From Shinella zoogloeoides (lineage in GTDB: Bacteria; Pseudomonadota; Alphaproteobacteria; Rhizobiales; Rhizobiaceae), in assembly GCF_033705735.1 (NCBI RefSeq), contig NZ_CP131131.1, positions 992,001 through 1,056,000 on the forward strand: 64,000 bases of DNA, given 5' to 3'. Shown one piece after another: positions 30,907-35,594 of this stretch. Both the position numbers and the translations under genes were made by a program. Under the pieces are notes generated by a model. The model saw nothing but the letters and a program-made list of their open reading frames with translations, did no database searches and was not told the origin of the DNA. Each line of letters opens with the position of its first letter. Position 1 is the stretch's first letter.

Positions 30907-33900
30907 ATGAACGACGCAGGCACCCATTTGCGCGGCCTCAGCCAGGGCGTGATGGACACGACCGAGAGCGGCCCGATGCCGCAGATCCTTTGTGGTCCCG
31001 ATTCGCCGCGCGCCGGCCAGCCGGAAGAGCGGCTTTCCCGCGTCTTCGAGGGACTTGCCGAAACCTTTGGGGACGCGCCGGCCGTGCTCGATTCCGGCCG
31101 CGTCTGGACCTATCGCGAGATGGACGCCGCCGCGAACCGCTTCGCGCGCCTGCTCGCCGGGCGCGGCGTCAAGCCCGGCGACCGGGTGGCCCTGCTGCTC
31201 GACCGCTCCGCCGAGACCTATATCGCCATCCTCGCCGTCATGAAGGCGGGTGCGGCTTTCGTGCCGCTCGCTCCGGCCTTCCCCGAGGAGCGCATGTCGC
31301 TCATCGTCGAGGATGCGGGCGTCAGCCTCGTCGTCACCATTGCCGGCTATGCCGCGCGCGCCGCCGGGCTTTCCGTCCCCCATGTGGTGATCGCGGCCGA
31401 TTGCCCGGAGGCCGCCCGGCACCCGGATACGCCGCTCGAAGTCGGCTTCTCCGAAGACGACATCTGCTACATCCTTTATACGTCCGGCACGACCGGCCGA
31501 CCGAAGGGCGTGGCGGTGCGCCACCAGAGCATCTGCAACTTCGTCCGCGTCGCCGCCGATGCCTATGGCTATCGCCCGGGCGACCGCGTCTACCAGGGCA
31601 TGACCATCGCCTTCGACTTCTCCACCGAGGAGATCTGGGTGCCCTTCGCCGCCGGCGCCACCGTCGTCCCCGCGCCGGGCCGCATGACGCTGGTCGGCGA
31701 GGAGCTTGCGGATTTCCTGCGCGCCAACGACATCACCTGCATGGCCTGCTCGCCGACGCTGCTTTCCTCCATCGAGAGCGACGTGCCGAGCCTGCGCGCC
31801 ATCCTCGTCGGCGGCGAGGCTTGCCCGCACAACCTCGTCACGCGCTGGTCGAAGCCGGGCCGGCAGATCCTCAACACCTACGGCCCGACCGAGGCGACCG
31901 TGACGGCGACCATGGGCTATCTCACGCCCGAGCGCCCTGTGACGATCGGCGCGCCGCTGCCGACCTATTCCATCGTCATCCTCGATGCCGAGGCGCCGCA
32001 ACTGACGGCGCCGGGCGAGCTTGGTGAAATCGGCATCGCCGGCATCGGCGTCGCGGTCGGCTATCTCAACCGGCCGGACCTGACGGCGCAGAAGTTCATC
32101 CCCGATTTCATCGGCCTGCCGAACAATCCCTCGCAGCGCATCTACCGCACCGGCGACCTCGGCCGCATCAATGCGGATGGCGAGATCGAATATCACGGCC
32201 GCATCGACACGCAGGTGAAGATCCGCGGCTATCGCATCGAGCTGGGCGAGATCGAGGCCGTGCTGCTCGACCAGCCCGGCATCGCGCAGGCGGCCGTCAC
32301 CACCTGGGAGATCGAGCCCGGCCGCGTCGAGCTGGTCGGCTACTATGCGCTGAAATCCGGCACGGACACGCTTGCCCGCGCCGACCTCGGCAGGGAACTG
32401 CGCCGCCGCCTGCCCGACTACATGGTGCCCTCCTTCCTGGAGGAGCTTCCGGCCCTGCCGATGACCGTGTCCGACAAGGTCGATACGCGCAAGCTGCCGA
32501 AGCCCATGAGCCTTCGCCTCGGGACCGAGCGCAAGGAAATCCTGCCGTCCACCGACGACGAGCGCTTCCTGACGGAAGCGCTGCGCGACGTGCTGAAGAT
32601 GGACGACATCTACGCCGAGGATCATTTCTTCGACGATCTCGGCGCCAACTCGCTGCTGATGGCCCGCTTCTGCGCGAAGCTGCGCACGCGCAAGGAGTGG
32701 GCGACCACCTCGATGCGCGACATCTACATGCATCCGACGGTGGCCGGCCTCGCGCGGCACCTGCGCGGCCCCGAGGAAGAGGCTGCGGCAGTGGAAGAGC
32801 CCTGCCTCACCCACCGCGCTTCAAACCTCGCCTATTGGACCAGCGGCGCGGCGCAGCTCGCCTTCTACGGCCTCTACAGCTATTTCGGCCTGTGGATGCT
32901 GAACTACGGCCTCAACTGGGTCTACGACATGCTCGACGATCCGGTTCGGCTCTATCTGCGCTGCGCCATCCTGTCGGCCGCCGTGTTCTTCGGCATGTCC
33001 GGCTTTGCCGTCGCTATGAAGTGGCTGCTGGTCGGTCGATGGAAGGCCGAGAGCTTCCCGATCTGGGGGCTTCGCTACTATCGCTTCTGGGTGGTCAAGA
33101 CGCTGATCCGCACCGCGCCGGTCGTCCTCTTCCGCGGCAGCCCGCTCTACAGCCTCTATCTGCGCCTGCTCGGCGCGCGGCTCGGGCGCAGCACCACCAT
33201 CGAATGTCGCACGATCCCCGTCTGCACCGATCTCATCTCTATCGGCGAGAGTTCGATCCTGCGCAAGGAATCGATGCTTCTCGGCTACCGGGCGCAGGCC
33301 GGCTACATCCATACGGGGCCCATCTCCATCGGCCGCGACGCCTTCGTCGGCGTCGGCTGCGCGATCGACATCGATACCTCCATCGGCGACCGCGCCCAGC
33401 TCGGCCATGCCTCCTCGCTCCAGCGCGGGCAGCATGTTCCCGATGACGCGCACTGGCACGGCTCGCCCGCGGTCCCGACAAATGCGGATTATTGCAAGGT
33501 GCCGGTCGTCACGCTCTCCAAGACGCGGCGTATCCTCTACGAGGCCGTGCAGCTCATCACGCTCTTTGCTGTCGTCACGCCGTTCCCGCTGTGGTTCCAC
33601 AGCTACTGGCAGAATGTCAGCGACGACTACCAGGAATCGATCGGCATCGTCGCCATCGGCACGACGGTCACGCTCATCGCTCTCATCGCCGCCCTCGCCT
33701 TCGTCGCCCTGGTGCTGCCGCGGCTGTTCAGCCTCGTCCTGAAGCCGGGCCGTACCTATCGGATGTACGGCTTCCATTTCTGGCTCCAGTCCATCGTCGA
33801 GGCCGGCACCAATGCGCGTCTGCTCAACCTGATCTTCGGCGACAGCTCCGCCGTCGTCCACTATATCCGGGCGCTCGGCTGGAACCTCAACAAGGTGGTG

Positions 33901-34947: not shown

Positions 34948-35594
34948 GCGACAGCGCGGCCGAGACCGCGCTGCTGGCGCAGATGGAGCGGCTGGCCCCG
35001 CCGGCGGTGCGGCTCGGCTGCCGGCTTATCCGGGCGGGCGACGAGGCCCTTCTCCTGCCGGAAGAGGCCGTCGCCCTTCCGGCCCGCCGGCTTGTCGCCC
35101 GGCGTGCAAGCGGTGCGGCCCGCGCGCTTGCGAGGGGTCTGCTGGCGGCGGAAGGCATGACTTCCGTTGCGATCGGACGCGGTCCTGCGGGTGACCCGCT
35201 CTGGCCGGCGGGCTTCGCCGGCTCGCTCGCCCATGACGACGAGATGGCCGTCGCGGCCGTCGCCCGCAAGGCCGATATTGCCTCGCTCGGCATCGATGTC
35301 GAGCCGGCCGAGCCGCTGCCGGACGAGATCGCCGCGCTGGCGGTAATGCCCGGCGATGTCCTTGAAGGCGTCCATCCCCGCCTTGCAGCACGCCTTCTCT
35401 TCAGCGCGAAGGAGGCGGTCTACAAGGCCGCCTATCCGCTGGACGGGGAAATCCTCGGCTACGAGCACATCGGTGTCGATCTTGCGCGCGGCGAGGCCGT
35501 GACGGCGCGCGGCCGCAGGATGCGGCTCTCCTTCTGCCTCCTGCCCCGCATCGTCGTCCTTGCCGTCGCGGAGGATCAGCCGGCCAGCAGATGA
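34944..35594 (+). CDS. 4'-phosphopantetheinyl transferase (EntD/Sfp type)
   Basis: Enzyme of 216 residues that moves phosphopantetheine from CoA to a carrier-protein Ser. Motifs are GSLAHDDEMAVAAV (CoA-binding His), LGIDVEPAEPL (metal Asp and Glu) and ARLLFSAKEAVYKAAYPL (catalytic Glu and Lys). It starts inside the synthetase stop (ATGA), so the two are translated together and its natural target is the T domain of that protein. Its 3' end overlaps the end of the convergent VTT gene by 19 bp. Confidence 0.92.
   Translation: MSDSAAETALLAQMERLAPPAVRLGCRLIRAGDEALLLPEEAVALPARRLVARRASGAARALARGLLAAEGMTSVAIGRGPAGDPLWPAGFAGSLAHDDEMAVAAVARKADIASLGIDVEPAEPLPDEIAALAVMPGDVLEGVHPRLAARLLFSAKEAVYKAAYPLDGEILGYEHIGVDLARGEAVTARGRRMRLSFCLLPRIVVLAVAEDQPASR

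Follow-up and report, generated by a model that had tools for sequence, protein, structure and literature searches.

A two-gene cassette at positions 30907..35594 of a 64,000-nucleotide stretch of the Shinella zoogloeoides genome (contig NZ_CP131131.1, positions 992,001 to 1,056,000, here called the window) very probably directs the synthesis, at the membrane, of a cationic isopeptide homo-oligomer or homopolymer. This level of confidence applies to the enzyme class and mechanism, and not to the identity of the monomer. The first gene encodes a synthetase of the family that includes PosA, the delta-poly-L-ornithine synthetase of Acinetobacter baumannii, and Pls, the epsilon-poly-L-lysine synthase; the second encodes a 4'-phosphopantetheinyl transferase (PPTase). 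The features are as follows.

30907..34947, plus strand: Pls/PosA-family synthetase gene, 1346 amino acids (open reading frame; TIGR02353, 849 bits against a cut-off of 423).
31057..32478, plus strand: adenylation domain, residues 51-524 (PF00501, PF13193; pocket columns by PosA numbering).
32566..32763, plus strand: carrier domain, residues 554-619 (PF00550).
32650-32652, plus strand: phosphopantetheine site Ser582 (motif LGANSLL at residue 578).
32845..34908, plus strand: membrane polymerisation domain, residues 647-1334 (TIGR02353, profile 3-695 of 695).
32941..33525, plus strand: first tandem unit, C1 (slice of residues 679-873, one helix and soluble part; hhalign).
33628..34221, plus strand: second tandem unit, C2 (slice of residues 908-1105; hhalign).
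34378..34944, plus strand: third tandem unit, C3 (slice of residues 1158-1346), related to hexapeptide acyltransferases (best profile match E 5e-7; conservation).
34944..35594, plus strand: Sfp-type PPTase gene, 216 amino acids (PF17837 and PF01648; ATGA overlap with the synthetase gene).

A Pfam scan at E <= 0.001 found one AMP-binding domain in the synthetase (residues 51-387, E 1.6e-81) together with its C-terminal part, a single PP-binding domain (E 3.8e-9), and neither a condensation nor a thioesterase domain; a Hexapep match fell below threshold. The open reading frames, the single adenylation domain, the carrier with Ser582 and the missing thioesterase and condensation domains had all been described in an initial annotation made from the letters of the sequence, and the reading frame list and Pfam agree with it. 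The C-terminal region matches TIGR02353, entitled 'Pls/PosA family non-ribosomal peptide synthetase', from end to end at 849.4 bits (cut-off 423.1), and the Pls-like class that the annotation had proposed, naming this profile as a check, is thereby upheld. The genome encodes one TIGR02353 protein above the cut-off, and a genome search detected no condensation domain. Three of its four PP-binding matches lie in open frames of 95-102 amino acids, and the synthetase is the only long carrier-domain protein found.

The adenylation pocket was read by alignment to PosA, using as reference the A. baumannii VB958 protein (D217, M218, E221, H260, N280, G282, T304, V312, S313), whose pocket is the printed PosA code minus its lysine. 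The corresponding Shinella residues are D237, F238, E241, A280, L300, G302, T324, V332 and T333, giving the code DFEALGTVT; the A10 lysine, K524, was chosen by eye from the motif. D237 and E241 align with D217 and E221 of PosA, and loss of either of the latter abolishes PosA activity (PMC10522769). G302 and T324 are the same as in PosA, where T304 contacts the side-chain amine (PMC10522769), and in epsilon-polylysine synthetase. The complete code matches neither PosA (DMEHNGTVSK) nor epsilon-polylysine synthase (D A E S I G T V V for the adenylation domain in PDB 7WEW, in our reading of a printed alignment). D, E, G, T and V are shared with both, whereas F/A/L/T take the place of M/H/N/S in PosA and of A/S/I/V in Pls. 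At the second pocket position, a larger residue has been associated with a shorter monomer, with Phe in enzymes using diaminopropionate or diaminobutyrate, Met in those using ornithine and Ala in those using lysine (PMC10522769); the Ala characteristic of epsilon-poly-L-lysine synthetase is replaced by Phe238 in Shinella. The pocket is therefore mixed, with a Phe as in enzymes for short monomers and a G and T as in those for ornithine and lysine. When a 147-residue piece around the pocket served as query, the PosA and Pls adenylation domains were the three best solved-structure matches. Pls has the same overall architecture, and PosA shares the adenylation, carrier and TIGR02353-type membrane domains (PMC10522769), the VB958 protein being 29% identical to the Shinella synthetase across 1273 aligned positions.

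The cassette belongs to a set of closely related loci. A scan of named genomes, by a method that detects close relatives only, returned 21 loci that were 71-99% identical in the best segment, all in Hyphomicrobiales genera or in records without a genus, the nearest being from Shinella zoogloeoides. TIGR02353 matches at E <= 1e-60 were present in 25 of 297 genomes of the taxonomic family, our own included, and in 71 of 397 genomes of the order, and were not found in four sampled congeners. Thirty-five plasmid records, among them Shinella, Phyllobacterium, Aureimonas, Skermanella, Streptomyces and Acinetobacter, contained a match at E <= 1e-100, and regions were taken from 17 of these. Pockets were read in 81 loci including the window (74 after collapse at 99% identity). 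Fifty of them (43 after collapse) have the type DFEA(L/M)G(T/S)VT and constitute the clade discussed below: 45 read DFEALGTVT, three DFEAMGTVT and two DFEALGSVT. The other types were DFEC/DFEAIS (13 loci), DLEDIG (12), DMEHNG (4) and DFEY (2). Since the 26 order-level loci are the best-scoring ones only, these counts favour enzymes like that of the window and are not natural frequencies. The reading left out L001-L004, L050 (same record as L020), short search loci, and L055, L099 and L100, in which the stretch holds no adenylation domain; L138-L140, all DFECLSAVT, were read later and stand outside the 81. In L097, the TIGR02353 gene contains one in-frame TAG and may be a pseudogene or reflect a sequencing error.

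Close relatives are already annotated by NCBI as 'Pls/PosA family non-ribosomal peptide synthetase', and the family is widely distributed, with homologues, including rhizobial ones, reported in 2023 to have the code D L E D I G T V T/V/I K (PMC10522769). The initial annotation had placed such polymers mainly in Streptomyces and fungi and regarded a rhizobial example as new chemistry, a view that is out of date. Among the matches listed in our literature search, most subscription papers being out of reach, there were no further rhizobial polymers of the Pls/PosA class, and a term search of PMC8117764 found no mention of proteobacteria or rhizobia. The Shinella enzyme is thus a well-supported member of a known family from a lineage already in print; its pocket is uncharacterised, and the PPTase of its own that accompanies it is conserved.

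The two genes are joined by an ATGA at 34944-34947, the 4-bp overlap that was annotated at the outset. GC content is 0.662 in the synthetase gene, 0.663 in the window and 0.720 in the PPTase gene. The PPTase call also proved sound, as the product contains the 4PPT_N (PF17837) and ACPS (PF01648) domains. It shares these with the Sfp-type enzymes Npt and PptT, its best family matches, but scores 85 bits against a cut-off of 370 for Npt and is not an equivalog of those named enzymes. It is one of two PF01648 (ACPS-family) matches in the genome, the other presumably being AcpS. With one TIGR02353 protein, no condensation domain, two ACPS-family proteins and few PP-binding matches in the genome, the PPTase is the likely activator of the synthetase carrier.

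Conservation of the unit extends well beyond Shinella. In 47 of the 50 clade loci including the window (40 of 43 after the 99% identity collapse), the synthetase gene is followed on its own strand by a PPTase gene at a distance of 0-592 bases, and the pairing is therefore not due to chance; L056, L066 and L076 are the three loci without it. No PPTase was found near the synthetase gene (pls) in 13 DFEC/DFEAIS, 12 DLEDIG or two DFEY loci, some of these stretches reaching only 0.6-1.5 kb downstream, and one of four DMEHNG loci, from Sphingomonas, has one. In that locus (L060, on a Sphingomonas parapaucimobilis plasmid), genes for a PPTase and a GNAT protein come after that for a synthetase with the ornithine-like pocket DMEHNGTVT. 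In the tree L060 stands well apart from the clade, and the association may therefore have arisen twice. In contrast to the Shinella gene, posA forms a single-gene operon (PMC10522769). A coupled helper gene has a precedent in kind, as a poly-D-diaminobutyrate synthetase gene is translationally coupled to a racemase gene (PMC8225329).

The membrane domain is internally triplicated. In hhalign comparisons of the three slices, E-values were 4e-31 for C1 with C2, 1e-35 for C1 with C3 and 1e-20 for C2 with C3, and two controls against the adenylation domain gave E 0.65 and 0.029, with probabilities below 2%. Hydropathy placed C-terminal hydrophobic stretches or clusters near residues 682-710, 876-895, 909-948, 1126-1150 and 1156-1187; the scan is unspecific, since it also flagged 104-157 inside the adenylation domain. 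A weaker first helix may lie near 640-675. The six paired helices around three soluble domains that had been proposed from the sequence are thus borne out as to the three homologous units and five of the helices; the sixth is weak, and the three pairs are complete only in a low-confidence model. When the C-terminal regions of 22 rows were made into a profile, it hit hexapeptide acyltransferases (best E 5e-7), the match lying chiefly in the third unit. Within this unit Q1271, H1273, E1276 and K1281 are identical in all 80 family rows compared, and 48 positions of the C-terminal region are at least 97% identical across the same rows. In a published model, the membrane domain of PosA has six helices topped by three left-handed beta-helices packed together, and the authors propose that the domain works as a single unit (PMC10522769).

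As we envisage the reaction, the PPTase would convert Ser582 of the carrier to the holo form, and the adenylation domain would adenylate a diamino acid and load it onto the carrier. The membrane domain, with three repeats of a transmembrane pair and a hexapeptide-repeat acyltransferase-like part, would then join the residues, probably through the side-chain amine, and the chain would be released without a thioesterase. Polymerisation, isopeptide linkage and the cationic nature of the product would follow by analogy with PosA and Pls. Given the Pls/PosA family assignment and the intact pocket acids, the cationic poly- or oligo-amino acid suggested by the initial annotation remains the expected product. 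Family products are reported to be antifungal, antibacterial or antiviral (PMC10522769, PMC8225329), and the predicted role is probably in competition with fungi or bacteria, or in surface properties. If the polymer is made, plant-associated rhizobia would own a cheap, broad-acting cationic polymer. The system is small, with two genes and the only long carrier protein found in the genome, and should be easy to test.

To place the clade, a tree was built with a quick method, with support from the Shimodaira-Hasegawa-like approximate likelihood ratio test (SH-aLRT) and a midpoint root for drawing only. It omits L055, L097, L138 and L140 (no adenylation domain, or a partial one), L069, L070 and L075 (duplicates of rows that were retained), L008 and L013 (duplicates of one another, neither being retained), and L016, L062 and L064, which were dropped to thin close relatives. 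The 42 clade-type rows group together with support 100, nested in a larger branch of 53 rows (support also 100); the other 11 rows there have DFEC or DFEAIS pockets, and the program warned of long branches among these 11. The nearest rows outside the clade are transaminase-linked enzymes from Skermanella rosea and Hyphomicrobiales, which also have F at the second pocket position. The Skermanella enzyme is 48.7% identical to the Shinella synthetase. These enzymes differ from the clade in reading C-L/V-S-A/V or A-I-S-A where the clade reads A-L/M-G-T/S, in having a diaminobutyrate transaminase neighbour, and in that no PPTase was found near any of the 13 loci of this pocket group, for some of which only a short stretch was covered. 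The Streptomyces NBC_01527 plasmid enzyme, of the same family and also with F at position 2, has the pocket DFECLSAVT, is 32.9% identical, and belongs, like the enzymes of Rhodococcus and S. cattleyicolor, to the other main branch; as Streptomyces DFECLSAVT enzymes lie there, this pocket either is ancient or evolved on two occasions.

A diaminobutyrate transaminase gene (TIGR00709, E <= 1e-100) was located within 2.3 kb of the pls domain match in nine of ten DFEC/DFEAIS genomes; eight of these genes score over the cut-off and one is cut by a contig end. The linkage is also seen in Skermanella and in the Streptomyces NBC_01527 plasmid, the latter with an aspartate kinase gene, and in Paenarthrobacter none is annotated within 6 kb. 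At the same threshold TIGR00709 was found in four of 26 clade genomes, always on a contig other than that of pls, and in none of 11 DLEDIG genomes. In our own genome both TIGR00709 (273 bits against 401.6) and TIGR02407 (EctB; 238 against 552.2) stay below cut-off, and the best TIGR00709 match scores as a gamma-aminobutyrate (GABA) transaminase. SbnB, for diaminopropionate supply, is likewise below cut-off in this genome, and was found in none of 26 clade genomes at E <= 1e-60 in a search in which no control genome was positive either.

These data suggest that the clade gave up diaminobutyrate in favour of another diamino acid, one that needs no dedicated gene, with ornithine the first candidate. 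A plausible but tentative history is that the 50-locus Hyphomicrobiales clade derives from a diaminobutyrate-using, transaminase-linked ancestor, and that in the clade the pocket became DFEALGTVT, the supply gene was lost, a dedicated PPTase was gained, and the monomer became a diamino acid of primary metabolism, yielding a polymer not yet described from rhizobia. For the monomer itself, L-ornithine is our provisional first choice; lysine, diaminopropionate or another compound, taken together, are a serious possibility. This order is a ranking rather than a result, since F238 argues the other way. The clade allows a single polymerase scaffold to be compared, in nature, on either side of the proposed change, which could reveal co-evolution of the adenylation pocket and the membrane polymerase.

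The main alternative is that the same machine uses 2,4-diaminobutyrate, the monomer proposed for its nearest relatives, supplied by an unrecognised transaminase or from outside. We consider this unlikely, both as an account of the cassette and as a choice of monomer, yet it has two points in its favour: with midpoint rooting the clade nests among DFEC/DFEAIS enzymes that mostly stand beside diaminobutyrate transaminase genes, and F238 fits a short monomer. It is opposed by the 22 of 26 clade genomes without TIGR00709 at E <= 1e-100, the other four carrying it on other contigs, by the GABA transaminase score of the best match in our own genome, and by the pocket, in which the positions equivalent to 282 and 304 are S and A/V in DFEC/DFEAIS enzymes but G and T in the clade (G and S in two rows).

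A second alternative is that the membrane domain transfers one or a few residues to a lipid, sugar or small molecule, with no free homopolymer being made. The resemblance of the third repeat to hexapeptide-family acyltransferases is compatible with this, as is the finding that no exporter is linked among the window genes tested. However, the domain matches in full length the family of PosA, for which a polymer has been shown, and Pls, for which one has been reported (PMC10522769), and of the nine other window genes tested, none generally accompanies the pair. We regard such a transfer as improbable. That the cassette is decayed or silent and makes no product is very improbable: its patchy distribution (25 of 297 family genomes, none of the four congeners) would suit decay, but the open frame, pocket acids and Ser582 are intact, the 48 C-terminal positions are strongly conserved and the two-gene unit is kept across genera.

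Several results weigh against the polymer-forming cassette we favour, or against ornithine as its substrate. Queried with the whole protein, the best solved structures were ordinary non-ribosomal peptide synthetase chains (linear gramicidin synthase), not Pls or PosA. The AlphaFold2 model of the membrane domain is poor, with a mean predicted local distance difference test score (pLDDT) of 35.5 from 22 rows of 70-100% identity; it supports no fold claim, and its secondary structure lends weak support to the first helix only. Beyond the weak hexapeptide matches, no solved structure covers this domain. The PosA authors tie Phe at the position of F238 to diaminopropionate and diaminobutyrate, which pulls against ornithine, and a transaminase undetected by TIGR00709 could supply diaminobutyrate. 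No exporter or hydrolase among the tested window genes is kept beside the pls pair.

Conservation of neighbours was determined by direct tblastn of ten window genes against the 49 other clade loci, a test that could miss neighbours kept elsewhere yet absent from the window, such as the GNAT gene described below. The PPTase was found at 46 of the 49 loci, and eight of the nine other genes at one to three. A pyridoxal phosphate-dependent decarboxylase gene (36283-37743) was rejected as a linked gene, being near pls in only one other locus. Its best model is the diaminobutyrate decarboxylase RhbB (165 bits against a cut-off of 900), and it lies far below both the diaminobutyrate and aspartate decarboxylase cut-offs; it converges on a gene for an Lrp-type regulator, past which lie genes for alanine racemase and D-amino acid dehydrogenase. 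Between it and the cassette, a YqaA-like (VTT) membrane protein gene (35576-36283, minus strand) meets the PPTase gene with an overlap of their 3' ends, and a relative adjoins the PPTase in three of the 49 loci, all Shinella.

Upstream of pls, positions 26371-30677 hold genes for an alkaline phosphatase, a small unassigned protein, an ATP-binding cassette (ABC) ATPase and an FtsX-type permease, a block common only to Shinella zoogloeoides PQ7 among the 49 loci. The alkaline phosphatase and the permease, each in one of 49 loci, were rejected as linked genes. So was the ABC ATPase, whose 17 matches were read as unrelated ABC ATPases: of the eight listed, one is the almost identical copy in S. 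zoogloeoides, and the remaining seven have 31-38% identity and do not adjoin pls.

The window has no GNAT match after pls by tblastn. A GNAT acetyltransferase gene starts within about 120 bases of the end of pls in 27 of the 50 clade loci (L015, L018, L019, L022-L025, L056, L057, L063-L068, L071-L073, L077-L080, L087, L088 and L092-L094), and is followed by the PPTase in 25; four further loci have a weaker match (27-29% identity) about 1 kb downstream. One of these clade proteins matches solved spermine/spermidine acetyltransferases at E of about 2e-10, with a 'probable acetyltransferase' equally good. Such an enzyme could cap or detoxify a cationic product.

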